DNA from: Rhodanobacter sp. 7MK24
GTDB lineage: Bacteria; Pseudomonadota; Gammaproteobacteria; Xanthomonadales; Rhodanobacteraceae
Reading direction: 5' to 3'
DNA: 64,000 bases
Assembly (NCBI RefSeq): GCF_014842995.1
Contig: NZ_JACYXL010000008.1
Span: 62,001-126,000, forward strand
Part shown: positions 19,118-34,140 of the stretch, piece after piece
How the letters are laid out: every line of letters begins with the position of its first letter
Numbering within the stretch: position 1 is the stretch's first letter
The notes under the pieces: model-generated
Database searches by the model: none
The model's input: only the letters and a program-made list of their open reading frames with translations
What the model was told of the DNA's origin: nothing
Translations under genes and position numbers: made by a program

Positions 19118-19121
19118 TCGC

Positions 19122-19778
19122 ATGCGCTGGCGGAGCTTCGCAGCGTGCTTGGCAACAGCGCTGGTGATTGTGCCGGCCGCTTCCGCGCGCGATGACTGGC
19201 CGGACACGCCGCTCGCCCGCACCCAGGCGCTGGCTGAACTGCAGACGCTCAATGCCGAGTTGTTGAGCCATCCCAGCGCCACGTTGACCCTGGAGCACTG
19301 GTGCAGTGCGCATCATCTGGCGGCGTCGGCGAAGATCCTCGCGCACCGCGTGCAAGGTGGGGACAAGCCATTGCCGCCGGACGGGCGCATGCTGCTCGGG
19401 ATTGGCGCGGATGAGCCAGTACGCTATCGACGCGTGCAGCTGGGCTGCGGCGATGTAGTGCTTTCCGATGCGGACAACTGGTACGTGCCGTCGCGGCTGA
19501 CGGCGACGATGAACCGCCAACTCGACACCACCGACGAGCCGTTCGGCAAGGTCGTGCAGTTGTTGCATTTCCGTCGCCAGACGCTGTCCGCCGACCTGCT
19601 GTGGTCGCCATTGCCGCAAGGCTGGGACAGTGGTGCGGTGCTGCCACCGGCAAGCAACCAGCCATTGGCGATTCCATCCCACGTGCTGCAGCATCGCGCC
19701 CTGCTGTACACGCAGGACAACCAGCCTTTCAGCCTGGTGGTGGAGAGCTATACCGCGAGCGTGCTGGTTCGTCCCTAA
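19122..19778 (+). CDS. Exported chorismate-lyase-like fold protein
   Basis: 218-residue protein with a signal peptide (cleavage near ASARD, residue 22). The segment RYRRVQLGCGDVVLSDADNW, then YVPSRL and TDEPFGKVV, resembles the core of the UbiC/DUF98 chorismate-lyase fold, where an Arg-containing strand precedes an aromatic VPxRL motif and a DxPxG loop. Known family enzymes act in the cytoplasm, so an exported form probably binds another ligand. It starts 4 bases after trpE and may be cotranscribed; whether that proximity to a chorismate enzyme means anything is unknown. Its stop overlaps the convergent amidase gene. Confidence 0.55.
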   Translation: MRWRSFAACLATALVIVPAASARDDWPDTPLARTQALAELQTLNAELLSHPSATLTLEHWCSAHHLAASAKILAHRVQGGDKPLPPDGRMLLGIGADEPVRYRRVQLGCGDVVLSDADNWYVPSRLTATMNRQLDTTDEPFGKVVQLLHFRRQTLSADLLWSPLPQGWDSGAVLPPASNQPLAIPSHVLQHRALLYTQDNQPFSLVVESYTASVLVRP

Positions 19779-20578
19779 TCTGCCGGCGCCTGCGGCGACG
19801 GTGCGGTGCAGGTGTTCGCGGTCGGTTCGATCTGCTGTGCGAGGTTGTAAAGGATGCGCAGGTCCTGCGCGTCCAGCGTGTCGCCTTCCATGCCGCGGAA
19901 GTGGTGGTGGAAGGAGTGCACGGCGGCGATGCGGTCGTCCAGTGCGTAGCCGACCACGGCCATCGCCATCCACGGATCGAAGCCGGGCGGCGGATCGCAC
20001 AGCGGGCCGTGCGGCCAGCGGCCGAATCCCGCGTCGGCGAGCTGCTGCCACGGGAACAGCGGACCGGGGTCGTCCTTGCGGCCGGGCGCGAGGTCTTCGT
20101 GGCCGATGATCTGCGTGGGCGGGATGTGCAGGCGCGTGGTGAGGTCGGCAAGCAGGCGCAGCAGGCTGGCGATCTGCGGTTGCGCGAACGGCGAGTGGCC
20201 GTCGTTGTCCAGCTCGATGCCGATGGAGGCGGAGTTGAGGTCGGTGATGGTGCCCCAGCGTCCCGGCCCCGCTTGCCATGCGCGCAGCTGGTCGGGCACC
20301 AGCTGATAGATGTGACCATCGCTGCCGATCAGGTAGTGCGCACTCACCGGGCCACCGCTGTTGCGCGTGCGCAGGGTGTCCAGCGCCTCCTGCGCGGAGT
20401 GCTCGTCGGTGAAGTGCAGCACGATCAGTACGGGACGACGGATGTCGTAGTTCGGCGAGGGCGTCCAGGTCGCCAGCGGATTGCGCGGCGGTGCGGTGGC
20501 GCACGCGGCGAGCAGCGACAAGAGCGCCAGCAGGCAGGCAGTGCGTAGCAAGCGGCTGAGTGCAGTGGGATGGTGCAT
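19775..20578 (-). CDS. Lipoprotein N-acetylmuramoyl-L-alanine amidase (AmiD-like)
   Basis: 267-residue amidase_2 (AmpD/AmiD fold) enzyme expected to cut the lactyl amide between MurNAc and L-Ala. The signal peptide ends in lipobox LLAAC, so it is probably anchored in the outer membrane. Zinc ligands are visible as VLHFTDEHS, IGHEDLAPGRKDDPGP and the GIELDN strand. A C-terminal alpha-helical tail (about 190-250) resembles the peptidoglycan-binding-like part of AmiD. It lies at the edge of the murein-peptide region and would supply free stem peptides. Confidence 0.85.
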   Translation of the reverse strand: MHHPTALSRLLRTACLLALLSLLAACATAPPRNPLATWTPSPNYDIRRPVLIVLHFTDEHSAQEALDTLRTRNSGGPVSAHYLIGSDGHIYQLVPDQLRAWQAGPGRWGTITDLNSASIGIELDNDGHSPFAQPQIASLLRLLADLTTRLHIPPTQIIGHEDLAPGRKDDPGPLFPWQQLADAGFGRWPHGPLCDPPPGFDPWMAMAVVGYALDDRIAAVHSFHHHFRGMEGDTLDAQDLRILYNLAQQIEPTANTCTAPSPQAPAD

Positions 20579-20597
20579 GCGGGGACTCGCTTTTGCT

Positions 20598-20740
20598 CGT
20601 CATTCCGGCGCAGGCCGGAAGAGATTTTCAACAGTTGGAGGCTGGTCATCCAGTTTGATAGCTCGTGCGACGCACGCAAAAACTGTTTTGTGTGCTTCGC
20701 ACGCTTGTTTCGCTGGATTCCGGCCTGCGCCGGAATGACG
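20598..20740. repeat. 143-bp element with 23-bp inverted ends
   Basis: CGTCATTCCGGCGCAGGCCG starts the left end at 20598, and its complement closes the right end at 20740. The 97-base interior is AT-richer and non-coding. It looks like a small non-autonomous (MITE-like) element or paired REP. No flanking target duplication is obvious. Confidence 0.75.
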
Positions 20741-20767
20741 GTGAGGTTGAGTGAAGCATGACGGCAA

Positions 20768-21820
20768 TCAATGCAGGAACGGTTCGGCGATCGCCAGCGC
20801 GGTGCGATAAGGCTCCGGATCGTTGCGGTTGCTGAGCAGGATCACCGTGAGGTGCTGCTTCGGCCAGCGCACGATCACGTTGCGAAAGCCGATGCTCTCG
20901 CCGGAATGCCACAGCGTGTCGCCAGTGATGCGCCAGCCGAAGCCGTAGCCGGCTTCGTAGGGCTCGCCCACGACTTTCACGTGCGGGCTGAAGGCGAGTT
21001 TGCGCGAAGCATCGCTGAGCAGGCGGTCGTCGTAGAGCGCGGCATCCCACTTCGCGAGGTCGTCGATGTTCGAATAGATGCCGCCGTCGCCGCGCGTGGC
21101 GCTGGTGAGGTCCTGGTCGGTGCGCTGCCAGTGGCCGTCGGATTCGCTGTAGCCGAAGGCACGGTTCGGTACGGTCTTGTCGTCGTGCACGTAGAGCAGG
21201 GTGTGGTCCATGTGCAGCGGCCGGAAGATGCGCTGCGCGAGGAAATCCTGCAGGTGCTGGCCGGACGCCTTTTCCACCACCAGGCCGAGCAGCACGTAGC
21301 CGGTGTTGCTGTAGCGATAGGCGCTGCCGGGCGGGAAGTAGCCGTGCGTGGTGGCGGCGACCATGTGCAGCACGTCGTCGTCGTTGAGCTGAGCAGTATG
21401 GCCGGGCGGCACCAGGTCTTCGTAATCGAGCAGGCCGCCGGTGTGGCTGAGCAGCTCACGCAGCGTCACCTTGTCCGTGAAGGCGGCCAGCGAGGGCAGC
21501 CAGTGACGGATCGAATCGTCGAGTCTCAGCTTGTCGCCCTGCGCCAGCAGCAGGATCGCGGCGGCGGTGAACTGCTTGGTGACGGAAGCGAGGCGGTAGT
21601 CGGTGGCGGAGGTGGCGGCGGTGTGGTGTTCGAGGTCCGCCATGCCGTAGCCGCGTTCGAGCAGCGGCTTGCCATCCTTGACGACCAGCAGCGCGGCGCC
21701 GGGCACGTCGCCGGTGTAGGGCTGCATCAGCTGGTTGGCGTGGTTGATGGCGTCGGCGGTGGAGGCGCTTGCGGTGCCGGCGATGAGCATCGATGCGAGG
21801 AGGGTGGTGGCGAAGCGCAT
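20768..21820 (-). CDS. Serine hydrolase of the class C beta-lactamase / DD-peptidase family
   Basis: 350-residue periplasmic enzyme with a signal peptide (ending TASAS, residue 20). Active-site motifs: SVTK (SxxK), YSN in YRYSNTGY and HSG in LWHSGESIG (KTG equivalent). In this family such proteins are DD-carboxypeptidases, D-amino-acid amidases or esterases more often than beta-lactamases. The start is set at ATG 21820, where the signal peptide begins; the frame runs upstream through a repeat. It lies in the murein-peptide region, supporting a D-amino-acid peptidase role. Substrate not proven. Confidence 0.8.
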   Translation of the reverse strand: MRFATTLLASMLIAGTASASTADAINHANQLMQPYTGDVPGAALLVVKDGKPLLERGYGMADLEHHTAATSATDYRLASVTKQFTAAAILLLAQGDKLRLDDSIRHWLPSLAAFTDKVTLRELLSHTGGLLDYEDLVPPGHTAQLNDDDVLHMVAATTHGYFPPGSAYRYSNTGYVLLGLVVEKASGQHLQDFLAQRIFRPLHMDHTLLYVHDDKTVPNRAFGYSESDGHWQRTDQDLTSATRGDGGIYSNIDDLAKWDAALYDDRLLSDASRKLAFSPHVKVVGEPYEAGYGFGWRITGDTLWHSGESIGFRNVIVRWPKQHLTVILLSNRNDPEPYRTALAIAEPFLH

Positions 21821-21846
21821 GGCAAGGCTCCGTGCGTTTGGATGTG

Positions 21847-22112: not shown

Positions 22113-22907
22113 TCATTGCACCGGCACGTCGTAAAGCATCTGCGGCGTGGGTTCGGGCGTGAGCGTGTAATGCCACCATTCCAGCGCGTAGTTCTGGAAG
22201 CCTTCGTGTTCCATCGCCGAGCGCAGCAGCAGGCGGTTGGTGTGCTGTTCTGCGCCGATGCCGGGCGCGTCGGTGTGGGCGCGCACGCCGAACCAGTCGA
22301 AGCCGGTGCCCATGTCCAGCGGCGCGCAATGTGTGCCGTCGGCAGCGCAGCGTTCCATGGTGAGGTCCACGGTGGCGCCGCGGCTGTGGCCGGAGACGGG
22401 CGCGATGTAGTCGCCCAGCAGTTTGGACTTGTCGAGGTCAGGGTAGTGCGCGGCCTTGGTGCGTTGGTCGGCGGGGTCGTGCGCCCAGCGCACGAAATCC
22501 GCCACCGCGCGGGCAGGGCGATAGCAGTCCCACAGCTTCAGGCGATAGTGCTGCACGCGCAGATCGCGCTCGACGCGCGTCAGTGCTTCGGCGGCGGGGC
22601 GCAGCAACAGGCATTTGGGAGCAAGGTAGCCATTCACGGGCCGGCCGACGAAGTTGTCGCTGCCGGCGTACTTGATGTCCTCGGCGATGTCGGGCACCAA
22701 GGTTCGAATGTCCACCAGGCCGGCCTGCGCCGCGGTTTTCGCGGGCGAGAGTTGCGGTGGTTGGTCACCTGCCCGCGCCATCTGCAGGCAGGTCGTGAGC
22801 AGGATGATCGACGCGATGCCGTAGGAGCGCACCCTGTGCGCGATTGGCACTTCGCGAAAAGCCTGATCGCGCACAGGGTGCGCTCCTGCGGGGAGCCTGC
22901 GCTTCAT
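22113..22907 (-). CDS. D-Ala-D-Ala dipeptidase (VanX/DdpX family), exported
   Basis: 264-residue zinc dipeptidase that would hydrolyse D-Ala-D-Ala. Catalytic motifs are SGHSRGATVD (SxHxxGxAxD) and EWWH near the C-terminus. The N-terminus is unusual: MKRRLPAG is followed by a 23-codon REP element translated in frame, then the hydrophobic core IASIILLTTCLQMARAG. The ATG overlaps the stop of the upstream hydrolase (ATGA), which supports this start and so the translation of the repeat. A GTG inside the repeat could be an alternative start. In this context it would feed on released murein peptides rather than confer vancomycin resistance. Confidence 0.87.
   Translation of the reverse strand: MKRRLPAGAHPVRDQAFREVPIAHRVRSYGIASIILLTTCLQMARAGDQPPQLSPAKTAAQAGLVDIRTLVPDIAEDIKYAGSDNFVGRPVNGYLAPKCLLLRPAAEALTRVERDLRVQHYRLKLWDCYRPARAVADFVRWAHDPADQRTKAAHYPDLDKSKLLGDYIAPVSGHSRGATVDLTMERCAADGTHCAPLDMGTGFDWFGVRAHTDAPGIGAEQHTNRLLLRSAMEHEGFQNYALEWWHYTLTPEPTPQMLYDVPVQ
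22821..22889. repeat. REP element copy 2, inside the VanX-like gene
   Basis: Begins GTAGGAGCGCACCCTGTGCG and ends in the near-complementary arm, 69 bases, exactly 23 codons. It lies in frame in the signal-peptide codons of the gene at 22113-22907 (minus), encoding AHPVRD and AHRVRSYG. Confidence 0.9.
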
Positions 22908-24604
22908 GGGCAGTCCCCTGTACGCACGAAGTGCAGGTCCTCATAGTCGGAACTGAAGTCGCCCAGCGCATCGACCTTGGCCATGGTCAGCATGGCGGGT
23001 TGGCCGCCTTGCGCGGGATGGAAGTCCAGCCAGGCGTCGGGGTCCATGTCGTGGTGGCTCCAGTGCACCAGGTCGCGGTTGCCCAGTCGCATCACGTCGC
23101 CGTTGAGCCGCGGCGATTTGGCGACGGCGAAACGCACGCGGCCGCCGCTCGGGCACAGCATGAGATCGCCCAGCCACGGGTCGCGGTAGCGGCCTGTCCA
23201 CGCGGCCAATGCAGCGGGTGCGACAGCTGTGGCTTTTGAAGTGTCGGGCGCGGCGGCGCGTTTGCTGGCCTGCTCGTCGGCGCGTTGCTGCGCGTCCGCG
23301 TACCACGTGACGTCGTGCGTGTCGTCCGGCTGGGTGAAGTGCTTGAGCAGCGCTTCGCCGAGCACGGTGCGCGCGGATTCCGCTTCGCCGTTGATGAGGA
23401 ACACGAAGCCGTCCTTCCGGTCGGGCAGCAGCATCAGTTCGGAGTACATGCCGTCCAGCGTGCCGGTGTGCCACACCGTCCAGGTGCCGTCCACGTCGGT
23501 CATGCGCCAGCCGTAGCCGTAGGCCATGATGTGGCTGTCGTCCCAGTTGTGGCGCTGTTCGGAGACGGGAATCAGCATGTGCGGCGATTGCAGCACGTGG
23601 CGCTGTTCCGCCGACAGCCACTGCAATTGCGCCGGCGTGGGCACCAGCCAGTTGCGCGCCCAGGCCAGCATGTCGTCGAGGTCGCAGCGGATGCCGCCGG
23701 CAGGCGCGGAGGTGATTGCGGGCACGACGGGGTTGTCTGGTTGCTGCGGAATATTGCGGCCATCCTGGCGCGAGTGCGGGGCGGCCACGTCGCCCACCGT
23801 ATCGCGGTTCCACTCGCCGACCTGGCAGCGCGAAAGCCCGAGCGGCTGGAACACCTCGCGATGCATCAGCGTTTCGTAGGGCGCGCCGCCTGCGGCCGCG
23901 GCTACTTCGCCGGCCACCACGTAGAGCAGATTGTCGTATTCGTACTTCGAGCGGAAGCTGTAGCCGGGCTTGATGTAGCGCAGGCCATGGATGATGTCGG
24001 CGCGGGTGAACGCGTTCGGCTCCGGCCACAGCATCAGGTCGCCGCCGCCTTCGGGCAGGCCGCTGGAGTGCGTGAGCAGGTCGGCCACGCGCATGTTCTT
24101 CGTGACCCACGGGTCGTACATCTGGAAGTCGGGCAGGTATTTCGTCACCGGGTCGTCCCAGTGCAGCTTGCCCTGGTCCACCAGCCGGCCCAGCAGGGCG
24201 GTGGTCATTGCCTTGCTGTTGGAAGCGATCTCGAACAGCGTGCGCGGCGTGATCTTCTGTCCGGAGCCGGCGACGGTTTCGCCGCGCGTGGCGATGTAGA
24301 CCACCTTGCCGTGTTCGATCACGCCGAGTGCGATGCCAGGCAGGTGGTAGCGCGCGACCACAGTGTCGAGGATCTGGTCGTAGTTGCGGGTTTCGGGTGG
24401 AGCGGAAGGAGAGGCAGCGAAAGCGGCGACGCAAGGCATGGCGAATGCAAAAGCGATTAGCGCCTTGCATGGCAACGTGGGGCGGTGGCGAGATCGACTC
24501 TTCACCCCGGCCCTCTCCTCGCTCCTCAACGTCGCGGCCATCCACGACCGCTCCTCGCGTGCCCCTGAGAGGAGAGAGCATCCTGTGCGTGCAATGCGTT
24601 TCAT
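22904..24604 (-). CDS. Serine hydrolase (beta-lactamase/DD-peptidase fold) with C-terminal extension
   Basis: 566-residue exported enzyme. Catalytic signatures: SNSK in ASNSKAMTT (SxxK), YDN in YEYDN and HTG in VWHTGTLDG. A C-terminal DUF3471-like beta domain (about residues 460-566) resembles those of D-aminopeptidase and D-amidase relatives. The ATG at 24604 overlaps the lysA stop (ATGA). Between that start and the hydrophobic core KALIAFAFAMPCVAAFA the coding sequence crosses a repeat (24505-24590), giving an abnormally long, charged N-region that may impair or delay export. It is coupled downstream to the VanX-like gene. Confidence 0.82.
   Translation of the reverse strand: MKRIARTGCSLLSGAREERSWMAATLRSEERAGVKSRSRHRPTLPCKALIAFAFAMPCVAAFAASPSAPPETRNYDQILDTVVARYHLPGIALGVIEHGKVVYIATRGETVAGSGQKITPRTLFEIASNSKAMTTALLGRLVDQGKLHWDDPVTKYLPDFQMYDPWVTKNMRVADLLTHSSGLPEGGGDLMLWPEPNAFTRADIIHGLRYIKPGYSFRSKYEYDNLLYVVAGEVAAAAGGAPYETLMHREVFQPLGLSRCQVGEWNRDTVGDVAAPHSRQDGRNIPQQPDNPVVPAITSAPAGGIRCDLDDMLAWARNWLVPTPAQLQWLSAEQRHVLQSPHMLIPVSEQRHNWDDSHIMAYGYGWRMTDVDGTWTVWHTGTLDGMYSELMLLPDRKDGFVFLINGEAESARTVLGEALLKHFTQPDDTHDVTWYADAQQRADEQASKRAAAPDTSKATAVAPAALAAWTGRYRDPWLGDLMLCPSGGRVRFAVAKSPRLNGDVMRLGNRDLVHWSHHDMDPDAWLDFHPAQGGQPAMLTMAKVDALGDFSSDYEDLHFVRTGDCP
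24505..24590. repeat. Repeat family 'TTGAGGAGCGAGGA', copy 2, inside a coding region
   Basis: Inverted relative of 21847-21928: on the minus strand CGTGGATGGCCGCGACG, TTGAGGAGCGAGGAGAGGG and a GGGGTGA end. It falls in frame within the N-terminal codons of the hydrolase starting at 24604. Confidence 0.65.
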
Positions 24605-25869
24605 GTCGTCTCCCACTGGCTGGCCGACTGTTCGCCGGCAAGCATTTCGTCCAGTGTTTGCCGCCGGCGCACCAGGGCGAACCGGCCGCGATCGAGCAGC
24701 ACTTCGGCGGCCAACGGCCGCGAGTTGTAGGTGGAGGCCATGGAGGAGCCATAGGCGCCGGTAGCGCGGATCATCACCAGGTCGCCCGCCGCGCAGGCGG
24801 GCAGCGTGCGGGCTTGCGCGAAGGTGTCGCCGGTTTCGCAGACCGGGCCCACCACGTCGTAGACGGCCGGTGGCCGCGCTTCGCCCGATACCGGCACGAT
24901 GTCGTGCCAGGCGTCATACAGGCTGGGGCGGGCGAGGTCGTTCATCGCCGCGTCCAGCACCAGGAAGTCGCGTGCCTCGCCATGCTTGATGCGCAGCACG
25001 CGCGTCAGCAGCACGCCGGCCTCGGCCACGAGGTAGCGGCCGGGCTCCAGCAGGAGGTGACCTTCGAAGCCGGCGAGCGCCTCGCGGATCACCGCCACGT
25101 AATCGGCCGGCGCGATAGTCGTATCGCCGTCGCGGTAGCGCACGCCGAGGCCGCCGCCCACGTCGATGCTGGCGACGGGATGGCCGGCGTCGCGCAGCTC
25201 GCGCCAGAACGCGGCCACGCGCTGCAGGGCTTGGCGATACGGTTCCAGCGAGAGGATCTGCGAGCCGATGTGCACGTGCAGGCCGTCCAGCAGCACATGT
25301 TTCAACGTGGCGCGCGCATCGAACCAGCGCCGCGCCTCGGCAATGCTTACGCCGAACTTGTTTTCCGATTTGCCGGTGGAGATCTTGGCGTGGGTGAGCG
25401 CATCCACGTCGGGATTGATGCGAACCGCCGCGCGCGCCATGGCGCCGTGTTCGCCGGCGATGCGTTCGATAGCGTGCAGTTCGTCCAGCGATTCCACGTT
25501 GAAGCGCTGGATGCCTGCAGCCAGCGCCTCGGCGATCTCGCCGTCGTTCTTGCCCACACCGGAAAACACGATGCGCTCGGGCGGCATGCCGGCGCGCAGC
25601 GCGCGCTGCAGTTCGCCGGCGGAAACGATGTCCGCACCCAGTCCGGCCTGCGCCATCAATTCGAGGATGGCCCGGTTGCCGTTGGCCTTGACCGCGTAGC
25701 AGATCGTCGCGTCCATGCCGTGCAGCGCCTGCTGCAGGCCGGCGATGCGCTGGCGGATCGCATTGGCCGAATAGGCGTACAGCGGCGTGCCGTGCCGTTC
25801 GGCGAGCGCGACGAGGTCCACACCGTCGAAATGCGTGGAGGGCGAAGTGTCCATGGTGGCTGGGTTCAT
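24601..25869 (-). CDS. lysA: Stand-alone diaminopimelate decarboxylase
   Basis: 422-residue PLP enzyme converting meso-diaminopimelate to L-lysine. The PLP lysine is in CYAVKANGN, and HIGSQ, DVGGGLGVRY, EPGRYLVAEAG, CETGD and GAYGSSMASTYNSRP supply cofactor and substrate contacts, so it looks active. ATG 25869 is chosen as the first Met after the upstream stop; ATG 25854 is an alternative. It is coupled to the hydrolase downstream and lies 19 bases after the transglutaminase-like gene. Xanthomonads usually make lysine with a fused LysC-LysA enzyme, so this extra copy in a murein-peptide set suggests diaminopimelate salvage. Confidence 0.88.
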   Translation of the reverse strand: MNPATMDTSPSTHFDGVDLVALAERHGTPLYAYSANAIRQRIAGLQQALHGMDATICYAVKANGNRAILELMAQAGLGADIVSAGELQRALRAGMPPERIVFSGVGKNDGEIAEALAAGIQRFNVESLDELHAIERIAGEHGAMARAAVRINPDVDALTHAKISTGKSENKFGVSIAEARRWFDARATLKHVLLDGLHVHIGSQILSLEPYRQALQRVAAFWRELRDAGHPVASIDVGGGLGVRYRDGDTTIAPADYVAVIREALAGFEGHLLLEPGRYLVAEAGVLLTRVLRIKHGEARDFLVLDAAMNDLARPSLYDAWHDIVPVSGEARPPAVYDVVGPVCETGDTFAQARTLPACAAGDLVMIRATGAYGSSMASTYNSRPLAAEVLLDRGRFALVRRRQTLDEMLAGEQSASQWETT

Positions 25870-25888
25870 TTGGGGATCGATAGGGAGA

Positions 25889-27367
25889 TCAATGTGGGTC
25901 GACCGGCGACCAGTCGAAGCCGTAGTTCCACTGGTCGTAGTAGAGGTTGCCGCCGCTCCACTCGACTTCGCCGCGCTGCGAATCCACGTTGTCGGAGCGG
26001 AACGACTGCTTGGCCGGCGTGAAGCCTTGGCCGAAGTCGCTGTTGAAGGCGACACGCCAGGCATCCAGGCCGCCGAGGTAGAACCACTCCAGCGCATCGT
26101 CGCCGGGCTTGGCCTGCGTGCCTGGATGCAGGCGGCCGAAGGTGACGTCCATCGGCACCCAACCGTAGGGCGCGAGGTAGAGCTGGCCCCAGTCGTGGAT
26201 GTCGTTGTAGCCGTGGTCGGCGAAGATCGCGCCGGACTGCCAGCGCGCCGGTATGCCATTCAGTCGCAGCAGGGCGATCAGCAGCATGGTCTGCTGGCCG
26301 CAGTCGCCGTGGCCGGCGTGCAGGGTGTAGTCGCTGAGGTTGGGGATGGTGGAGTACTCGCGCGCGCCCGCCCACGGGATCTCGTCCACCGCGGCGAAGA
26401 GTTTCTGCGCGATGCGGTAGGGATTCTTCTCGTCGCCCAACACCTGCCGCGAGAACAGGCGCAACTGCTCGGTGAACACTAGGTGCGGTGCACGTTCCGC
26501 GACATAAGGTGCAAGTTCCGGCGTGATCGTCGCGGGCACCACCTTGGCCGGGTCGATCACGTGGTATTGCGCGGACAGCGTGACTTCGTAGGTGACCGAG
26601 AACGTGGTGGGCTTGCCGGCCTGCGCGGCCTTTTCGAAGTACACCGTGCGCATCGGCGCGGCATCGGGCGCGATGACGTGCTTTGCGGGCACGCTGCTCA
26701 CGTAGCGGATGTCGTCCTGCTGGCCCGGCAGTGCCTTGGGGTAGGGAATCCACGCGCGCACGGTTTTGCCGGCCGGCACCGCGTCGGCATCCACGGTGAG
26801 CGTCTGGGTAATGCGCACGCGATGCGGCAGCACGCTGCTGCGGTTTTCCTGCAGCGATGCCGAACGCACCTCGCGGTGGTAGTCGTTCAGCACTTGCATC
26901 GGATCGTCGTCGAACGGCGCGGGATGGGCGCGGCGTGCGGCGGCCTCGGCGCTGAGGCGGAAGATGTTGGAGGCGTCGCGCTTGAAGTACATCACGCGGC
27001 CGTCGATCGCCATGCGTTCGAGCAGGCCGTGCTCGTCCCAGTCGCGGAATTCGTCGTCGCGCAGGTCGGGCACCTGCTTGCGGATGCGCGCCTTCAGCGC
27101 GTCGGCGTCGAGCGAAAAGTCGTAACGGATGCGGCGCATGCGTTCGCGCTGGAACAGCAGCGCATCGCGCATGGCGGCGTCCAGCCCCGGCTGGCCGAGT
27201 GCCAGCGCGATGTCGGCATCGGCGGCCTGGAACTGGCCGGCATCCACCAGCGCGGCGATGCTGCTTGGCGTCTCGGTGGCCCAGGTCGCTGCAAAGGGTG
27301 CGGCCAGCAAGGCCGATGCGAACAGCAAGCGTGTCCTCCAGCGTGTAGTGCTTGCCACGTTCGCCAT
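25889..27367 (-). CDS. Exported transglutaminase-like cysteine protease
   Basis: 492-residue exported protein (signal peptide about residues 1-30). The C-terminal half is a transglutaminase-core domain with Cys in HAGHGDCGQQTMLL (about residue 354), His in IHDWGQLYLAP and Asp in WVPMDVTFGR, a full triad. A beta-rich domain precedes it (about 190-320). Bacterial members are mostly peptidases. With the murein enzymes around it, this one may cut stem peptides, but no specific bond can be assigned. First gene of the leftward set. The Met at residue 1 (27367) is preferred to one 14 codons earlier. Confidence 0.82.
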   Translation of the reverse strand: MANVASTTRWRTRLLFASALLAAPFAATWATETPSSIAALVDAGQFQAADADIALALGQPGLDAAMRDALLFQRERMRRIRYDFSLDADALKARIRKQVPDLRDDEFRDWDEHGLLERMAIDGRVMYFKRDASNIFRLSAEAAARRAHPAPFDDDPMQVLNDYHREVRSASLQENRSSVLPHRVRITQTLTVDADAVPAGKTVRAWIPYPKALPGQQDDIRYVSSVPAKHVIAPDAAPMRTVYFEKAAQAGKPTTFSVTYEVTLSAQYHVIDPAKVVPATITPELAPYVAERAPHLVFTEQLRLFSRQVLGDEKNPYRIAQKLFAAVDEIPWAGAREYSTIPNLSDYTLHAGHGDCGQQTMLLIALLRLNGIPARWQSGAIFADHGYNDIHDWGQLYLAPYGWVPMDVTFGRLHPGTQAKPGDDALEWFYLGGLDAWRVAFNSDFGQGFTPAKQSFRSDNVDSQRGEVEWSGGNLYYDQWNYGFDWSPVDPH

Positions 27368-27530
27368 CAGAAACCCCCGCGGTGCGTCCCCAGCGGCGTT
27401 GTGTAGCACGCTTGCAAATGGCGGTCAATAATTTATGCTGACGATGAAATTACATGGAATCAAATATTCCTTGGCTTGCCGCATGGCCGTGCTGTCGCGC
27501 CTGGCGACAGGCTGGTGAAGGGGTGAAACG
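27368..27530. promoter_or_regulatory. Divergent control region of the murein-peptide gene sets
   Basis: AT-rich compared with its surroundings. Contains TAATTT (27429-27434) matched by AAATTA (27447-27452) with a 12-base spacer, and GGAAT-CAAAT-ATTCC (27456-27470). For the leftward genes a promoter candidate is TTGACC (complement of 27423-27428), 18 bases, TACACA. The inverted repeats are candidate operators for the RpiR-family regulator encoded in the rightward set. Confidence 0.5.
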
Positions 27531-28940
27531 ATGAAGCGTCCGGTTCTTGCAGTCTTGGTCTTTGCGCTCACGCTCGTCCATCTGCCGATGCAGGCGCGTG
27601 ACGCGCCCACCAGTGCATTGCCGATCCCACCCAGTGGCGTGCTCGGCGTGGGCGACGCGCAATTGACGCCGGCGTTCTGGATCGGCCTGCAGGCGCAGCC
27701 CGACCGGCAGATCCTCACCCGCGCCCAGGTCGATGCGCAGAACGCGAAGCTGTTCAAGCTCGATCCCACCATGCACGACCTCGCAGCGCTGCCCGCCACG
27801 CTGCCGCGCGCGCAGGTGGCTGCCTGGATCGAGCGCCTGTCGAAGCGACCCACGCACGCGCTCTACGATGAACATGGGCAGTCCGTGCCGGCGGCCACGC
27901 TGGACAAGGCGGAGAGCGACCTGGCGCTGGACGCGATCCCCGCACAGACCACGGTGCGTTATGGCCTGGTGGTTGAGCGCGCCGCGCTGCGCACCTTTCC
28001 CACCACGCTGCGCGTGTTCAGCAGCGACGACGACCACGACATCGACCGCTTCCAGGAGAGCGCCGAGTTTCCCGGCACGCCGGTAGCCATCGTGCACGCC
28101 AGCCGCGACGGCCAATGGCTTTTCGTGGTGAGTCCACGCTACGCGGCATGGATGCAGAAGCGGTACGTGGCGGAAGGCGCGAAGGACATGGTGCTGGCGT
28201 ACGCCGCGAAGACACCGTACCGCGTGGTCACCGGCCCCAGCGTGCGTACGGTGTTCACGCCCGAGCAGCCGGCGGTGTCTCAGCTGCAGCTGGACATGGG
28301 CACGCGCGTGCCGCTGCTTGGCACGCTGCCGCCCGACCAGCCGGTGAACGGCCAGACGCCGTATGCCGCATATACGCTGCAACTGCCCATCCGCAGGGAC
28401 GACGGCAGCCTGGAGCTGGTGCCCGCGCTTCTGCAGAAGAACACCGATACCGCGGCCGATTATCCGTCGCTGACGCCGCGCAACCTGATCACCCAGGCGT
28501 TCAAGTTCCTCGGCGAGCGCTACGGCTGGGGCCACTCGTATGACGGCCGCGACTGCTCGGGCTTCGTTTCCGACGTGTACCGCAGCCTCGGCGTGCAGAT
28601 GCCGCGCAACACCGGTGACCAGGCCAAGAGTCCCGCACTGGAACATCGCCTGTTCACCGCCGCCGACAGCCACGCGGTGCGCCTGCAGGCGGCGCTGCAG
28701 TTGCAGCTTGGCGATCTGGTCTACATCCCTGGTCACGTGATGATGGTGCTGGGCCAGTGGGAGGGGCAGCCGTGGGTGATCCACGACGTGCTGGGCATGA
28801 GCTACCTCAAGCCGGACGGCTCCACCGCACACGTCGATCTCAACGCGGTGTCGGTGACGCCGTTGCTGCCCATGCTCTACGGCAAGGACGGCTCCACCTT
28901 CATCGACCACATGACCAGCATCGTTCGCATCCGCCGCTGA
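27531..28940 (+). CDS. Exported NlpC/P60 endopeptidase with SH3 domains
   Basis: 469-residue exported enzyme expected to cut the gamma-D-Glu-meso-DAP bond of murein stem peptides. Signal peptide (residues 1-22), an N-terminal NlpC/P60-stabilising region, one or two bacterial SH3-like domains (about 140-290) and the catalytic domain (about 310-469). Catalytic Cys is in GRDCSGFVSDVYRSLG (about 341) and His in YIPGHVMMVLG (about 402). The architecture matches NlpC/P60 cell-wall-recycling enzymes that require an unsubstituted L-Ala end. AAGGGG precedes the ATG. First gene of the rightward set. Confidence 0.88.
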   Translation: MKRPVLAVLVFALTLVHLPMQARDAPTSALPIPPSGVLGVGDAQLTPAFWIGLQAQPDRQILTRAQVDAQNAKLFKLDPTMHDLAALPATLPRAQVAAWIERLSKRPTHALYDEHGQSVPAATLDKAESDLALDAIPAQTTVRYGLVVERAALRTFPTTLRVFSSDDDHDIDRFQESAEFPGTPVAIVHASRDGQWLFVVSPRYAAWMQKRYVAEGAKDMVLAYAAKTPYRVVTGPSVRTVFTPEQPAVSQLQLDMGTRVPLLGTLPPDQPVNGQTPYAAYTLQLPIRRDDGSLELVPALLQKNTDTAADYPSLTPRNLITQAFKFLGERYGWGHSYDGRDCSGFVSDVYRSLGVQMPRNTGDQAKSPALEHRLFTAADSHAVRLQAALQLQLGDLVYIPGHVMMVLGQWEGQPWVIHDVLGMSYLKPDGSTAHVDLNAVSVTPLLPMLYGKDGSTFIDHMTSIVRIRR

Positions 28941-28981
28941 TCCCCATCGCCTTTCACCGAGTTACACGGACACGGTCGCCC

Positions 28982-30082
28982 ATGAAAATCACCGACATCC
29001 AATTCGGCATGCTGCGGGTGCCGCTGAAGACGCCGTTCAAGACGGCGCTGCGCACCGTGAACCAGGTCGAGGACATCGTGGTGATGGTGCACACCGACAC
29101 CGGCCACGTCGGTTACGGCGAGGCGCCGGCCACCGCGGTGATTACCGGCGATACCCATGGCTCGATCACCGACGCGATCCGCCACTACATCACGCCGCGC
29201 CTGCTCGGCCAGGACGTGGCCGAGCTCAACCGGCTGACCCACCTGGTGCAGTCGTCGATGGAGAAGAACACCAGCGCCAAGGCGGCGGTGGAGATCGCGC
29301 TGTACGACCTGTGGGGTCAGCTCTACGGCGCGCCGCTGTACAAGCTGCTGGGCGGCGGCGATCCGGTGATCACCACCGACATCACCATCAGCGTGGACTA
29401 CATCGACAAGATGGTGGCCGATTCCGTCGCCGCGGTGGAGCGCGGTTTCGAATCGCTGAAGATCAAGGTGGGCAAGGACATCGGCGTCGACATCGAGCGC
29501 GTCAAGGCGATCTACGCGGCGGTCGAGGGACGCGCCCTGCTGCGGCTGGACGCCAACCAGGGCTGGACGGCCAAACAGGCGGTGTACGCGCTGCAGACCC
29601 TGGAAGACGCCGGCATCAAGCTGGAGCTGGTCGAACAGCCGGTGAAGGCGCGCGACCTGGAGGGCATGCGCTACGTCACGGAGCGCGTGCACACGCCGAT
29701 CATGGCCGACGAAAGCGTGTTCGGGCCGATGGAGGTGATCGACCTGATCCGCCTGCGCGCCGCCGACATCATCAACATCAAGCTGATGAAGACCGGCGGC
29801 ATCTCCAACGCGATCAAGATCGCGGACATCGCCGCGCTGCACGGGGTGGAGTGCATGATCGGCTGCATGCTGGAAACCTCGATCAGCGTGGCGGCGGCGG
29901 TGCACGTGGCGGTGGCGAAGTCCAACGCGATCACCAAGGTGGACCTGGACGGCCCTTCGCTGTGCCAGTTCAACCCGGTGGACGGCGGCGTGATCTTCAA
30001 CGAGTCCGAGATCTCGGTGACGGATGCGCCGGGCCTGGGCATCCGCGAGATCCGCGGGCTTGAAACGGGCATCGCGGGCTGA
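28982..30082 (+). CDS. L-Ala-D/L-Glu (dipeptide) epimerase
   Basis: 366-residue enolase-superfamily enzyme, cytoplasmic. It would convert L-Ala-D-Glu from murein to L-Ala-L-Glu for ordinary peptidases. Motifs in order: a capping-domain N-terminus, catalytic lysines in LKIKVGKD, metal ligands in RLDANQGW, ELVEQP and MADESVF, and the second catalytic Lys in IKLMKTGG. No signal peptide. It lies 41 bases after the NlpC/P60 gene that would generate its substrate and 1 base before the RpiR gene. Confidence 0.88.
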   Translation: MKITDIQFGMLRVPLKTPFKTALRTVNQVEDIVVMVHTDTGHVGYGEAPATAVITGDTHGSITDAIRHYITPRLLGQDVAELNRLTHLVQSSMEKNTSAKAAVEIALYDLWGQLYGAPLYKLLGGGDPVITTDITISVDYIDKMVADSVAAVERGFESLKIKVGKDIGVDIERVKAIYAAVEGRALLRLDANQGWTAKQAVYALQTLEDAGIKLELVEQPVKARDLEGMRYVTERVHTPIMADESVFGPMEVIDLIRLRAADIINIKLMKTGGISNAIKIADIAALHGVECMIGCMLETSISVAAAVHVAVAKSNAITKVDLDGPSLCQFNPVDGGVIFNESEISVTDAPGLGIREIRGLETGIAG

Positions 30083-30083
30083 C

Positions 30084-30941
30084 ATGTCGCCGCTCGTAAA
30101 AATCCGCTCCGAGCGCGACCAGATGTCGGCGGTGGAACGCCGCATCGCCGATTTCGTGCTGGACAACGCGCAACTGCTGCGCGACTACTCCTCGCAGCAA
30201 CTCGCCAACGCGCTGGGCATCAGCCAGTCCAGCGTGGTGAAGTTCACCCAGAAGCTGGGCTTCAAGGGCTATCCCGATCTCAAGTATTCGGTCGGCGAGG
30301 CGATCGCGCGCGCCGACAACGGCGACGAGGTGGAAGCCGCCGCGCAGGTTCGCGGCGAGGCCGCGGAATTGCCGGCCACCAGCCTGTGGCGTCGCAAGTC
30401 CGAAGCGGAGGAGGCCACGCGCCTTATCAATCCGCCGCAGACACTCGCCGCGGTGACCAAGGCCATGGCCAAGGCCGGCCGCGGCGGCAAGGTGTTCCTC
30501 ATCGGCCTCGGCGAGGACGACATCCATGCGCGCGGCTTCGCCTACAAGCTCGCGCTGCTCGGCCTGCCCGTGGTGCACAACTTCGACCTCGCACGGATGG
30601 CCGCCAATGTCTCCGCCGCTGGAGCCGGCGACGTGCTGCTGGTGTTCTCCGAGCACGGCAACCATCCGGCGCTGTGCAAGATCGGCCGGCATTTCCGCGA
30701 ACGGCGCGGCATGGTGGTCAGCGTGACCCGGCACAGCGCCAACCCGCTGCGCACGCTGGCCGACGCGGCCCTGCTGGTGTCCGCGCACGACGAGCGTCCG
30801 TATATCCAGTCGCTGCTCTACCAGTCCGCGCTGCAACACCTGCTGGACGTCCTGTTCGTGCAGTTGTGCGAAGGCGACGACGCGCGTCACGCGCAGTTGG
30901 TTGCCAACCTGGAACGCATCCAGCAGGTGCTGGAGCCGTGA
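30084..30941 (+). CDS. RpiR/MurR-family transcriptional regulator
   Basis: 285-residue regulator with an N-terminal helix-turn-helix (about residues 1-78, LANALGISQSSVVKFTQKLG) and a C-terminal SIS sugar-phosphate-binding domain (about 125-265). MurR of this family senses MurNAc-6-phosphate in E. coli. A muropeptide- or sugar-derived effector is plausible but not shown. Position inside the rightward set suggests it controls the divergent genes, perhaps through the inverted repeats at 27429-27470. ATG 30084 follows the epimerase stop after 1 base. Confidence 0.85.
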   Translation: MSPLVKIRSERDQMSAVERRIADFVLDNAQLLRDYSSQQLANALGISQSSVVKFTQKLGFKGYPDLKYSVGEAIARADNGDEVEAAAQVRGEAAELPATSLWRRKSEAEEATRLINPPQTLAAVTKAMAKAGRGGKVFLIGLGEDDIHARGFAYKLALLGLPVVHNFDLARMAANVSAAGAGDVLLVFSEHGNHPALCKIGRHFRERRGMVVSVTRHSANPLRTLADAALLVSAHDERPYIQSLLYQSALQHLLDVLFVQLCEGDDARHAQLVANLERIQQVLEP

Positions 30942-30965
30942 CAAACCATGCGGGGATTCCACGCC

Positions 30966-31736
30966 ATGCTTAACCGTTTCGTCGCCTTGCTGATTGCCGG
31001 CGTTGCCTTCGCGGGTCATGCCATTGCCGCCACGGATCCGACCGCCGCCTGGTCCAACGCCGACCAGATGGTGCTGGTTACCGTGCCCGACTGGAACACC
31101 ATCGAAGGCACGCTGCGCACTTACCAGCGCGATCGAGGCAGTGCGTGGCACGAAGTGGGTAGCGCGCAACCTGTGGTGATCGGCCAGAGCGGCTCGGCCT
31201 GGGGGCTCGGCTTGAACCAAGCGCAGGCCGACGGCCCGCAGAAGCACGAAGGCGACGGACGCAGCCCGGCTGGCGTGTTCCGCATCGGGACTACCTTCGG
31301 CTACGCGGCACACGCCGACACGGCGATGCCGTATCTCGGGCTCACCGCCACCGATTACTGCATGGACGTCAGCGGCACGCCGCTCTACAACCGGATTGCC
31401 GATACGGCGAAGGTTGGCGAGGCCGCGCTCAGGGGTTCCAGCGAGCCGATGCGGCGTGACCTGCATTTCCATGGCGACCAGGCCTACCGCATCGGCTTCG
31501 TGATCGAGCACAACCCGGACGGCGTGGCGCACGGGGGCAGTTGCATCTTCGCGCATCTCTGGTCGTCGCCGACCAGCGGCACCACCGGCTGCACTGCGAT
31601 GACGCCGGACACCATGCAGCGCCTGTTGGCATGGCTGAAACCGCAGGCGCATCCGGTATTCGTGCTGTTGCCGCAGGACGAATACGCGCGCCTGCGCCAC
31701 GCATGGCGGCTGCCCGACGCGAAGGCCGGTCGATGA
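30966..31736 (+). CDS. Exported L,D-transpeptidase (YkuD) fold protein
   Basis: 256-residue exported protein (signal peptide to about residue 21, HAIAA). The YkuD catalytic signature is recognisable: His in FVIEHNPDG, a second His in SCIFAHLW and Cys in GTTGCTAM. Enzymes of this fold act as L,D-transpeptidases or L,D-carboxypeptidases on murein tetrapeptides. The start is ATG 30966, giving a standard signal peptide; ATG 30948 in the same frame is possible. Its stop overlaps the transporter start (ATGA). Confidence 0.82.
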   Translation: MLNRFVALLIAGVAFAGHAIAATDPTAAWSNADQMVLVTVPDWNTIEGTLRTYQRDRGSAWHEVGSAQPVVIGQSGSAWGLGLNQAQADGPQKHEGDGRSPAGVFRIGTTFGYAAHADTAMPYLGLTATDYCMDVSGTPLYNRIADTAKVGEAALRGSSEPMRRDLHFHGDQAYRIGFVIEHNPDGVAHGGSCIFAHLWSSPTSGTTGCTAMTPDTMQRLLAWLKPQAHPVFVLLPQDEYARLRHAWRLPDAKAGR

Positions 31737-33010
31737 GCGCCACCACGCGGGTCCTGACCAGCCTGGTTGCCGGCGCGTTGGCCGGACTGGCATTGGCGAC
31801 CTGGGCGCCGGCCTGGGCGCAGCACGCGGCGAATGTGGCGCAGCCCATCGGCCACCTGTGGCTGAACGCCTTGCAGATGACGGTGGTGCCGCTGGTGCTG
31901 GCGTTGGTGGTGGTGGGCGTGAACACGGCCAGCGATGCGGCGGCCTCCGGACGCATCGCACGGCGTGCGCTCGTCGCCATCATCGCGATCCTGGCGCTGG
32001 GCGCGGCAGTCGCCGCGTTGCTGGCGCCGCCGTTGCTGGCGATGTTTCCGCACAACCCCGCGTTGGGTGCAGCGCTGAGCGGCCACCCCGTAAACGCCAC
32101 GGAAGTCTCGGCACCGGGATGGGCCGACTGGTTCGCCGGCATCGTGCCCAGCAACGCGCTGATGGCCGCGGCGCAGAGCGCGATGCTGCCGGTGGTGGTG
32201 TTCGCGCTGTTCCTCGGCTTCGCGCTCACGCAGCTGCAGCCTTCGCGCCGCGCGATGCTGGTGGAATTCTTCCAGGCCATGGCCGACGCGATGATCGTGA
32301 TCGTGCGCTGGGTGCTGTGGCTGGCGCCGTTGGGCGTGTTCGCGTTGATCCTCGCCGTCTGCGCGCGCGCCGGCCTGGGCATGGTGCGCGCATTGGGCGT
32401 GTACGTGCTGGTCGAGATCATCCTGTACCTCACGGTCACCGTGCTGATGCTGCCGGTGGCGGTGCTGTGGGGCGGCGAGCGCCTGCGGCGCTTCGTGGTC
32501 GCGCTGGCGCCGGCGCAGGCGGTGGCGGCCAGCACGCAGTCTTCGCTCGCTTCGTTGCCGGCGATGCTGGAAAGCGCGGAGCGACGGTTGGGTTACCCGC
32601 AGCAGGTCACTGCGCTGGTGTTGCCGATGGCGGTATCGCTGTGCCGGCTCACCAGCCCCGTGCAGTACATCGCCTCGGCATGCTTCATCGCGTGGGCCAC
32701 CGGCACCGACGTCGGCGCTGCGCAGCTTGCCGCGGCGGCTGCGCTGGCGGTGGTGATCAGCCTGGGCTCGGTGGGCTTGCCCGGCCAGGTCACCTTCATG
32801 GCGACGAATCTGCCGGTGGCGCAGGCGATGGGCGTGCCGCTGGCGCCGCTGGGCCTGATGCTGGCGGTGGACACGTTGCCCGACGTGTTCGCCACGCTGG
32901 GCAACGTCACTGCCGACCTCACCGTGGCCAGCGTAGTCGCGCGGCAGTCGCGCAACGACACCTCCAACACTTCCCCCGCGAACGGGGAAGGCAACGCGAA
33001 ACAGGATTGA
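31733..33010 (+). CDS. Dicarboxylate/amino acid:cation symporter (DAACS family)
   Basis: 425-residue inner-membrane transporter with about eight hydrophobic segments and two re-entrant hairpin regions. The substrate region carries AVAASTQSSLASLPAML and a PGQVTF turn, the usual layout of glutamate/aspartate/dicarboxylate symporters. It is coupled to the YkuD gene (ATGA). In this context it would import glutamate or related products. The C-terminal tail SPANGEGNAKQD is encoded by a CTTCCCC/GGGGAAG hairpin (32970-32990) that looks like an acquired repeat. Confidence 0.85.
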   Translation: MSATTRVLTSLVAGALAGLALATWAPAWAQHAANVAQPIGHLWLNALQMTVVPLVLALVVVGVNTASDAAASGRIARRALVAIIAILALGAAVAALLAPPLLAMFPHNPALGAALSGHPVNATEVSAPGWADWFAGIVPSNALMAAAQSAMLPVVVFALFLGFALTQLQPSRRAMLVEFFQAMADAMIVIVRWVLWLAPLGVFALILAVCARAGLGMVRALGVYVLVEIILYLTVTVLMLPVAVLWGGERLRRFVVALAPAQAVAASTQSSLASLPAMLESAERRLGYPQQVTALVLPMAVSLCRLTSPVQYIASACFIAWATGTDVGAAQLAAAAALAVVISLGSVGLPGQVTFMATNLPVAQAMGVPLAPLGLMLAVDTLPDVFATLGNVTADLTVASVVARQSRNDTSNTSPANGEGNAKQD

Positions 33011-33012
33011 AC

Positions 33013-34140
33013 ATGCAGGCGAACGATTTCGACGCCATCGTCATCGGTGCCGGCATGGCCGGCGCCTCGGTTGCGTGGTTCATGGCGCCGCACGCGCGCG
33101 TGCTGGTACTGGAACGCGAGTCGTGGCCGGGCATGCATTCCACCGGGCGCTCCGCGGCACTGTTCAGTGAGACCTACGGTTCGACACAGGTGCGTGCACT
33201 GTCGCGCGCCACGCGACCTTTCCTCGAGCATCCGCCGGAAGGTTTCGCCGAGCATCCCATCCTGACGCAACGCCCCACCCTGGTGATCGGCAGCGCCGAG
33301 CAGGCGGGCGCCGTGCGCGAGATGTACGCGGAGAACCGCGTCCACATCCCAGGCCTGCGCCTGCTCGATGCCGACGAAGTGCAGGCGATGGTGCCGGTGC
33401 TGAAGCCGGAAGCCGCGCAGATCGGCATGCTCGAACCCGGTGCCGCCGACATCGACGTCAACGAATTGCATCAGGGTTTCCTGCGCGGCTTGCGCCAGCG
33501 CGGCGGCACGCTACGCGTCGACGTGGCCATCCGCTCCATCGAACGCGGGCAGGGGCAGTGGAACATCGACTGCGGCGAAACGATGTATCGCGCGCCGCTG
33601 CTGCTCGACGCCGCGGGCGCGTGGGCGGACGAGGTGGCGCGCCTCGCCGGCGTGGCGCCGCTGGGCCTGCAGCCGAAGCGGCGCACTGCCTTCCTGTTCG
33701 AGCCGCCGAAGGGCCTCGACACCTCGCACTGGCCCTTCGTGATCGACGCAGAGGAAAGCTTCTACTTCAAGCCCGATGCCGGTCTGCTGCTGGGTTCGCC
33801 CGCCAACGCCGACCCGGTGCCGCCGCACGACGTGCAACCGGAGGATTTCGACATCGCATTGGGCATCGACCGCATCGAGCAGGCCACCACGATGACGATC
33901 AACCGCCCGACGCGCAGCTGGGCCGGCCTGCGCAGCTTCGTCGGCACCGAAGGCGACCTGGTGGGCGGCTTCGCACCCGACGCGGAAGGCTTCTTCTGGG
34001 TGGCCGCGCAGGGCGGCTACGGCATCCAGACTAGTGCTGCGATGGGCGAAGCCTGCGCGAACCTTGCTCTTGGCCACGCATTGCCGCAGCACTTGGTGGC
34101 AGCAGGCATCACTGCCGAGATGCTCGCGCCACGGCAATGA
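33013..34140 (+). CDS. FAD-dependent D-amino-acid-oxidase-type oxidoreductase
   Basis: 375-residue DAO-fold flavoprotein with an N-terminal Rossmann motif VIGAGMAGASVAWFM, conserved LLDAAGAWADEVARLAG and a C-terminal GGYGIQTS. No signal peptide. The family includes D-amino acid dehydrogenases and glycine or sarcosine oxidases. As the last gene of the rightward murein-peptide set (2 bases after the transporter) it may oxidise D-Ala or another released amino acid. The exact substrate cannot be read from sequence. Confidence 0.82.
   Translation: MQANDFDAIVIGAGMAGASVAWFMAPHARVLVLERESWPGMHSTGRSAALFSETYGSTQVRALSRATRPFLEHPPEGFAEHPILTQRPTLVIGSAEQAGAVREMYAENRVHIPGLRLLDADEVQAMVPVLKPEAAQIGMLEPGAADIDVNELHQGFLRGLRQRGGTLRVDVAIRSIERGQGQWNIDCGETMYRAPLLLDAAGAWADEVARLAGVAPLGLQPKRRTAFLFEPPKGLDTSHWPFVIDAEESFYFKPDAGLLLGSPANADPVPPHDVQPEDFDIALGIDRIEQATTMTINRPTRSWAGLRSFVGTEGDLVGGFAPDAEGFFWVAAQGGYGIQTSAAMGEACANLALGHALPQHLVAAGITAEMLAPRQ

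Follow-up and report, generated by a model that had tools for sequence, protein, structure and literature searches.

The association of ykfB with ykfC is known from several bacteria, as related in an excerpt of PMC2954226. In B. subtilis (ykfABCD) and B. cereus (ykfBC), the gene for an NlpC/P60 γ-D-Glu-diamino-acid endopeptidase lies beside that for an L-Ala-D/L-Glu epimerase, and the same pairing is found in the locus described here, twelve open reading frames (ORFs) at positions 19775-34140 of a 64,000-nucleotide stretch of one contig (NZ_JACYXL010000008.1) from Rhodanobacter sp. 7MK24; the stretch is called the window, and the host genome measures 4.15 Mb. The B. subtilis set also includes an L,D-carboxypeptidase, YkfA, which is a further likeness. 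The transporters differ, being a dpp dipeptide ABC neighbour in B. subtilis and oppA in B. cereus, as against SDF and DUF819 proteins here or in relatives. Unlike the ykf sets, the locus carries an RpiR-type regulator with its own DNA element, LysA, a DauA-like dehydrogenase, a transglutaminase-fold protein, a VanX-like protein and an amidase, to which relatives add a TonB-dependent receptor, and its NlpC/P60 enzyme is of the DvLysin rather than the YkfC type.

In E. coli, MpaA, YcjG and PepD cut the D-Glu-mDAP bond (mDAP, meso-diaminopimelic acid), epimerise L-Ala-D-Glu and split the dipeptide, according to the same excerpt (PMC2954226). The chemistry predicted for the locus is shared with this route, with an unrelated endopeptidase. 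The E. coli enzymes are cytosolic, their genes are scattered and no TonB receptor is known to go with them. Another comparison is offered by the N-acetylglucosamine (GlcNAc) clusters of Caulobacter, where, as part of PMC13046382 describes, a TonB receptor, an inner-membrane carrier, catabolic enzymes and a local regulator are found together. These share the TonB-linked plan, with a sugar there and, as we read it, the peptide moiety here; no enzyme processing GlcNAc or N-acetylmuramic acid occurs among the twelve genes.

We consider it likely that the locus serves the utilisation of murein stem peptides in the Lysobacterales, linked to TonB and under the control of RpiR, and that the window holds the genus's version of it. 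The basis for this is gene content, conservation, compartments predicted from sequence, catalytic motifs, and the DNA element together with its co-variation with rpiR. Murein peptide metabolism of the ykfABC type is known, and the TonB-linked form is new to the literature searched: none of the matches listed described the locus, as judged by title and the start of the abstract, and the term DUF819 was in none of those listed in part for one search. Many bacteria shed or meet murein, and a dedicated route bringing stem peptides across the outer membrane and converting every residue to food was not found described in that literature. More tentatively, this reading may give the Oar-type receptor, the DUF819 carrier and the SDF clade discussed below functions not found described there.

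The twelve genes, all named by family searches (Pfam, NCBIfam), diverge in two sets of six from a 163-base spacer at 27368-27530, a figure that assumes the ATG at 27367 as the start of the transglutaminase gene. Leftward from the spacer lie the genes for the transglutaminase-fold protein (tgase), LysA, a β-lactamase-fold hydrolase (bla2), the VanX-like protein, a further β-lactamase-fold hydrolase (bla1) and an AmpDh2-like amidase; rightward lie those for the NlpC/P60 enzyme (nlpC), the epimerase (epim), RpiR, a YkuD-fold protein, an SDF carrier and the DauA-like dehydrogenase. An earlier note on this DNA had described twelve genes in two divergent sets with intact motifs, and the ORFs, family searches and alignments confirm that description.

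We sampled 150 genomes of the order, counting the epimerase at E up to 1e-30 and NlpC/P60 at E up to 1e-20. The epimerase was found in 53 genomes and NlpC/P60 in 50; by a reading of the two result tables, 48 genomes had both, and in all but G052 (47 genomes) the two genes share a contig and lie no more than 4 kb apart. In L079 (genome G147) the epimerase match is split into two adjoining parts that lie in different open frames, which suggests a frameshifted or mis-sequenced copy. Neighbourhoods were then compared in 52 loci fetched by the epimerase, 12 extra loci fetched by sdf, nlpC or tgase, and 80 named loci fetched by nlpC, which are the best 80 of 510 NlpC/P60 relatives; locus genes were found by tblastn. 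Judged by the NlpC/P60 protein, the host's closest named relatives are two Rhodanobacter strains, sp. DHG33 (92%) and C06 (91%). Eleven loci were present twice; they were removed for the deduplicated counts of 119 loci and 86 spacers and kept in the count of 95 loci for the element, the rpiR count at the 30% threshold, the RpiR alignment of 89, the epimerase pair test and all motif counts in aligned relatives, from which rows with internal stops, short matches or low identity were dropped.

Among the 80 named loci, epim was present in 74 (in 73 directly behind nlpC and on its strand), ykuD in 72, rpiR in 68, tgase in 65 (64 of them divergent and upstream), sdf in 65, bla2 in 62, lysA in 47, dauA in 37 and vanX in 34. 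The counts for nlpC and epim are not unbiased, since loci were fetched by those genes. On these numbers the core consists of the right-hand operon as far as sdf, together with tgase and bla2; lysA, vanX and dauA are frequent, and the fetched flanks include the amidase gene or bla1 only occasionally. Genera with the cluster include Rhodanobacter, Dyella and Lysobacter. Because the flanks span 10-11.5 kb and 12 of the 80 loci are shorter than 20 kb, the outer genes (vanX, bla1, the amidase gene and that of an M19 dipeptidase found in relatives) are undercounted. The co-conservation across the Xanthomonadales/Lysobacterales that the earlier note had called for was thus looked at directly, and the genes do not come together in this genome only.

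The cluster is mostly kept while the flank often changes. This bears on the possibility that the neighbourhood has no joint function and is a gene-dense envelope region held together by descent alone. Those loci whose names reach that rank do belong to one order (78 of 80, the other two being metagenome bins labelled Proteobacteria or Pseudomonadota), and shared ancestry would fit such an account. However, the set is kept while flanks vary (a trp gene in 25 of 80), one family of loci (f8, below) rebuilds it with non-homologous parts, and a spacer element comes and goes with rpiR in all eight independent pairs, so that we regard descent alone as highly improbable.

That element lies at 27401-27470 (no strand assigned) and consists of GTGTAGCAC (27401), GGTCAATAATTTAT (27423-27436) and the inverted repeat GGAATCAAATATTCC (27456-27470). 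The consensus order is TGTGTAnCA, then GGTCAATAATTTAT, then the inverted repeat GGAAT-N4/5-ATTCC. With GGTCAATAATTTAT as anchor, allowing at most 3 substitutions, the element was detected in 93 of 95 loci and, after removal of loci with identical nlpC, in 84 of 86 spacers. The inverted repeat was exact in 38 of these 84 deduplicated spacers and within one mismatch in 74; in 42 loci, counting duplicates, an exact repeat began 29-30 bases after AATAATTTAT. Collapsing the spacers at 85% identity left 54 and a nearly unchanged consensus. In the window, GGTCAATAATTTAT with at most two mismatches occurs once, against 0.02 occurrences expected.

Counting rpiR at 45% identity or more (a 35% match in L066 being left out), both rpiR and the element were present in 88 loci and neither in 27; the element stood alone in three loci, all on contigs that end before rpiR (L060, L061, L105), and rpiR alone in one, that of Lysobacter concretionis (L163). 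At a 30% identity threshold, two loci had rpiR and no element. On the nlpC tree of 116 loci, rpiR and the element agreed in 8 of 8 independent pairs (p 0.0078), and tgase agreed with the element in about 7 of 10; the epimerase, compared with duplicates still in the set, agreed in 2.5 of 7. The element is retained in seven loci that have rpiR and no tgase, and is missing from two that have tgase and no rpiR. Because the element tracks rpiR across loci, we take RpiR as its reader and propose that the element is a putative RpiR operator; the suggestion in the earlier note that RpiR is the likely regulator is strengthened accordingly by the pairs. The pattern GGAATN{4,5}ATTCC has three palindromic sites in the host genome, including the one in the spacer, against none for the reversed control pattern; as a rough hand estimate gives about two sites by chance, a wider regulon is not claimed. 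Hexamers resembling TTGACC/TACACA are visible by eye in the spacer, and no promoter is claimed from them.

RpiR (30084-30941, plus strand) combines a helix-turn-helix domain (PF01418) with a SIS domain (PF01380). In the consensus of 89 sequences the SIS domain reads FsEhG in place of the sugar-phosphate loop, which we take to be S-x-S-G-x-T in RpiR/MurR regulators of sugar phosphates. The ligand is thus probably no sugar phosphate.

Export signals were recognised by eye at the N-termini of the amidase (a lipobox), bla1, the VanX-like protein, bla2, the transglutaminase-fold protein, NlpC/P60 and YkuD, and none was seen by eye at those of LysA, the epimerase, RpiR and the DauA-like dehydrogenase. 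With export signals on the cutting enzymes and none on the epimerase, LysA or the DauA-like enzyme, the products must be taken in by a carrier. In the pathway that we propose, wall or foreign murein fragments would reach the periplasm, in most relatives via the Oar-type receptor of the locus and in the host by another route. There the AmpDh2-like amidase would release stem peptides, the β-lactamase-fold hydrolases, the VanX-like enzyme and YkuD would remove D-Ala residues, and NlpC/P60 would cleave the γ-D-Glu-mDAP bond. Inner-membrane carriers (SDF here; in other loci SDF with DUF819, or else an APC or SSS carrier) may then import L-Ala-D-Glu, mDAP or D-Ala. Once inside the cytosol, these would be processed further: the epimerase would yield L-Ala-L-Glu, LysA would yield lysine, and the DauA-like enzyme would deaminate D-amino acids. 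RpiR may control both divergent operons from the spacer element, and its SIS domain probably responds to a ligand other than a sugar that the pathway produces. Taken together, we infer that the products could dismantle the whole stem peptide. The theme of murein-peptide catabolism set out in the earlier note stands; that account was incomplete as to the compartments and the need for a carrier, the usual TonB receptor, DUF819 and M19 genes, and the operator element.

NlpC/P60 (27531-28940, plus strand) is an exported protein with SH3b (PF12913, SH3_6) and NlpC/P60 (PF00877) domains, the architecture of DvLysin, PnpA and EcgA with its Cys-His-His triad, and it matches the solved structure 3m1u at E 7e-29 over residues 128-425. 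The Cys and the first His are present in 130 of 130 relatives and the third His in 127. No c-clip (N_NLPC_P60) domain was found, the N-terminal part having no Pfam match at E 0.001. The enzyme is predicted to cleave γ-D-Glu-mDAP. The epimerase (28982-30082, plus strand), of the YkfB type, matches 1jpm at E 4.8e-104. KxK, the D/E/D metal ligands, the far-side Lys, DxD and Arg24 are all aligned and identical, so that its active site is that of B. subtilis YkfB in the alignment to 1jpm; we assume the roles and numbering of these residues, for example that DxD binds the substrate amine. KxK, D/E/D, K and DxD are invariant in 118 of 118 aligned relatives. It scores under the cut-off of the NCBIfam equivalog NF041118 (254 against 500 bits), and is predicted to act on L-Ala-D-Glu.

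YkuD (30948-31736, plus strand) scores 23.4 bits with the Pfam YkuD model, exactly the Pfam cut-off. Models from AlphaFold were used for this protein and for the transglutaminase-fold protein. With the YkuD model, plain Foldseek gave no match under E 0.001, and re-examination by VIA-align gave structural matches to Csd6 and Pgp2, which presumably have L,D-carboxypeptidase activity. Compared by fold with L,D-carboxypeptidases and transpeptidases, YkuD appears to be closer to the former, and it is likely an L,D-carboxypeptidase. ElsL, a YkuD-fold protein, trims tetrapeptides (PMC8649774, in excerpt); it is leaderless and cytosolic, whereas the YkuD protein of the locus has an export signal.

Relatives show how the parts may be exchanged. 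Ten loci of one family (f2) are without SDF and have an APC permease behind YkuD instead; an over-long ORF masks the YkuD gene in the APC loci, and YkuD counts in the 119-locus tally are therefore low. The six loci of f8 (L065, L066, L068, L069, L071, L077) are built differently, with the amidase gene, nlpC and epim and without YkuD; they have LdcA in 5 of 6, a TonB receptor of another type in 5 of 6 and an SSS carrier in 4 of 6, with Gate (nucleoside recognition) proteins in most. The finding of LdcA in f8, where YkuD is absent, is consistent with YkuD performing the L,D-carboxypeptidase step. Of the 80 named loci, 62 have an Oar-type TonB-dependent receptor (CarboxypepD_reg, Plug, β-barrel), whose place is next to tgase, 58 have a DUF819 membrane protein, whose place is in front of nlpC, and 53 have an M19 dipeptidase; after removal of identical nlpC, a TonB receptor of some kind is present in 89 of 119 loci and an inner-membrane carrier in 101, window included. 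This recurring logic of hydrolases, receptor, carrier and epimerase, with parts swapped, is the strongest argument for function.

The SDF carrier (31733-33010, plus strand; PF00375, 253 bits) is a divergent member of the SDF/DAACS family. The glutamate/aspartate site of GltPh/GltP is taken here to consist of the NMDGT motif and a side-chain contact by Arg397. In the carriers of the locus transmembrane segment 7 (TM7) reads F/C-R-L/I-T-S-P, and the arginine column holds Ala in 76 and Cys in 3 of 79 relatives. The GltPh-type binding motifs are thus lost in 79 of 79, and the glutamate import given to this protein in the earlier note is not supported. Import of cystine or DAP in the manner of TcyP was also rejected, since E. 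coli TcyP, the single TcyP compared, has DMGRT and GQNGC and the carrier has neither. We propose that it imports a periplasmic product. Distant SDF carriers of the same odd type (31-35% identity), in which Lys replaces the TM7 Arg, are present in L095, L096, L097 and L098, from other families; they are not beside any of the locus genes searched, save for a 28% trpG-like match in L098. The locus offers testable substrates for DUF819 and for this odd SDF clade, and possibly a non-sugar RpiR with a ready-made putative operator.

The DauA-like FAD-dependent D-amino-acid dehydrogenase (33013-34140, plus strand; DAO family) matches 3nyc at E 9.6e-131 (440 bits). The fold and the carboxylate-binding Arg and Tyr are present, the R, Y and R columns being invariant in 51 relatives. 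We take Arg and Tyr to bind the carboxylate in DauA, and Glu87 and His48 to hold the guanidinium side. The Glu87 column reads Ala (26), Thr (11), Ser (11) or Asn (3) in the 51 relatives and the His48 column Leu (38) or His (13), with Leu in the window, so that the side-chain pocket is changed. Oxidation of D-amino acids by a DAO-type enzyme, as first suggested, is therefore kept as a DauA-like dehydrogenase and narrowed by the altered pocket. LysA (24601-25854, minus strand; TIGR01048 481 bits, cut-off 298) is a stand-alone meso-DAP decarboxylase with the catalytic-motif Lys in 58 of 58 aligned relatives. It is the second copy in the genome, the other being fused to aspartate kinase (NF006515, 1201 bits), which supports the role first assigned to it, as the retention of the NlpC/P60 and epimerase core in relatives does for that pair.

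The DauA-like, VanX-like and D-aminopeptidase-like enzymes and the M19 dipeptidase are not wall-specific, and the locus could instead serve general scavenging of D-amino acids or mixed L,D-dipeptides from lysed prey, nonribosomal peptides or aged proteins, murein as such not being the source. An NlpC/P60 enzyme of γ-D-Glu-mDAP type, an epimerase with the YkfB site, a DAP decarboxylase, an amidase and YkuD or LdcA nevertheless indicate the stem peptide, and general scavenging appears quite unlikely.

Envelope remodelling or turnover is a stronger competitor. Exported hydrolases would then act on the cell's own sacculus and cytosolic enzymes would salvage the shed material, outside nutrition not being the purpose. 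Seven of the twelve products are exported, mostly of wall-hydrolase families; the genomes keep Mpl; the window and its nearest kin are without the TonB receptor; and DvLysin-type enzymes include the wall-remodelling EcgA, as stated in part of PMC7860986. A TonB receptor in 62 of 80 loci, with other receptor types in f8 and g52, is on the other hand hard to fit with self-turnover, and carriers, LysA and DauA-like genes travel with the locus. We hold remodelling to be rather unlikely, and stem-peptide utilisation remains our preferred explanation.

Several observations weigh against stem-peptide utilisation as we have set it out. The TonB receptor, DUF819 and M19 are all missing at the locus in the window, in the same-genus L032 and in Rhodanobacter DHG33 and C06; since the usual locus has them, what the window holds is a cut-down or rearranged form. 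In the rest of the host genome the best Oar-like protein has 35% identity, locus receptors sharing 43-76% with the reference, so that outer-membrane uptake is unsupported for the host. The host genome contains the peptide-reuse ligase Mpl, for which 147 of the 150 sampled genomes score over cut-off, and one S66 (LdcA-type) gene; the latter disposes of the idea that LdcA is absent there. Breakdown would thus compete with reuse, and peptide reuse probably exists alongside it. Within the fetched flanks of the 80 named loci, bla1 was present in 20 and the amidase gene in 6. The epimerase is missing from L087, L088, L160 and L175, which retain nlpC and sdf; in Dyella mobilis (L148) nlpC is the only gene of the set, and a number of loci from Dyella, Thermomonas and elsewhere are likewise reduced. 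A sigma-70 scan of 27350-27560 found no consensus promoter. The relatives DvLysin, EcgA and PnpA act on muropeptides, as described in the excerpt of PMC7860986. The YkfC subfamily marker for a free N-terminal L-Ala is Asp256, with Tyr118 (PMC2954226, in part). The corresponding column, assigned by the R-N/D-S/T motif without alignment to YkfC itself, is occupied by Asn in 121 of 130 relatives (Asn360 in the window) and by Asp in the other 9, making a strict need for free N-terminal L-Ala unsure.

The D-Glu context gives the epimerase a possible further importance. The MurI model had no match in the host genome; among the 150 genomes it was over cut-off in three (G018, G110, G117), with some match, mostly weak, in 45, and the genomes other than these three may reach D-Glu by a different route. 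MurI absence is nearly order-wide and hence does not discriminate, and as an explanation of the cluster's distribution it was discarded. X. oryzae makes D-Glu by MurD2/MurL, with MurL inactive in the D-to-L direction (PMC5808125, in excerpt). A cell of the MurD2/MurL kind would need another route from L-Ala-D-Glu to the L-form; if the host is of that kind, the epimerase would supply it.

The remaining left-hand genes all lie on the minus strand. The transglutaminase-fold protein (25889-27367; Transglut_core) is exported, with a C370/H405/D421 triad that is invariant in an alignment of 26 sequences, residue numbers following a longer ORF that reaches 27409. The VanX-like D-Ala-D-Ala dipeptidase family protein (22113-22907; Peptidase_M15, PF01427, 147 bits; signal peptide) matches 1r44 at E 2.6e-45 and is under both equivalog cut-offs (VanX, 191 against 320 bits; DdpX, 115 against 176); its SGHSRGxTxD and EWWH motifs are mostly kept among 65 aligned relatives. 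The hydrolase bla2 (22904-24541; PF00144, 212 bits) has a signal peptide, a weak DUF3471 match and SxxK in 96 of 96 aligned relatives. For bla1 (20768-21820; PF00144), a serine β-lactamase-fold hydrolase with a signal peptide, the top NCBIfam match listed is D-aminopeptidase (120 of 443 bits). A class C β-lactamase identity was rejected for both, the NCBIfam matches listed (best 25 of 48 and 25 of 47, respectively) all being under cut-off. The amidase (19775-20578; Amidase_2, PF01510, 115 bits) is an N-acetylmuramoyl-L-alanine amidase by family and a predicted lipoprotein, with the lipobox LLSLLAAC read by eye; its closest solved relative is AmpDh2 (4bpa, E 4.6e-37).

Outside the locus, a probably exported protein (19077-19778; no Pfam or NCBIfam match at E 0.001) overlaps the end of trpE and converges on the amidase gene; it accompanies trpE in relatives, for example in L032, L074, L104 and L132. 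Between the dauA-like gene and trpG, a TonB-dependent siderophore receptor (TIGR01783, 262 bits, over cut-off) and a PepSY_TM protein are encoded leftward at 34583-38386; the receptor is matched in one of the 80 named loci, that of Rhodanobacter DHG33 (L104). The twelve genes split the trp genes of the window, with trpE (17609-19117, by eye) on one side and trpG (39165-39764), trpD and trpC (the latter two by eye) on the other. A trp gene of any kind lies near 25 of the 80 named loci, and the remaining loci sit elsewhere.

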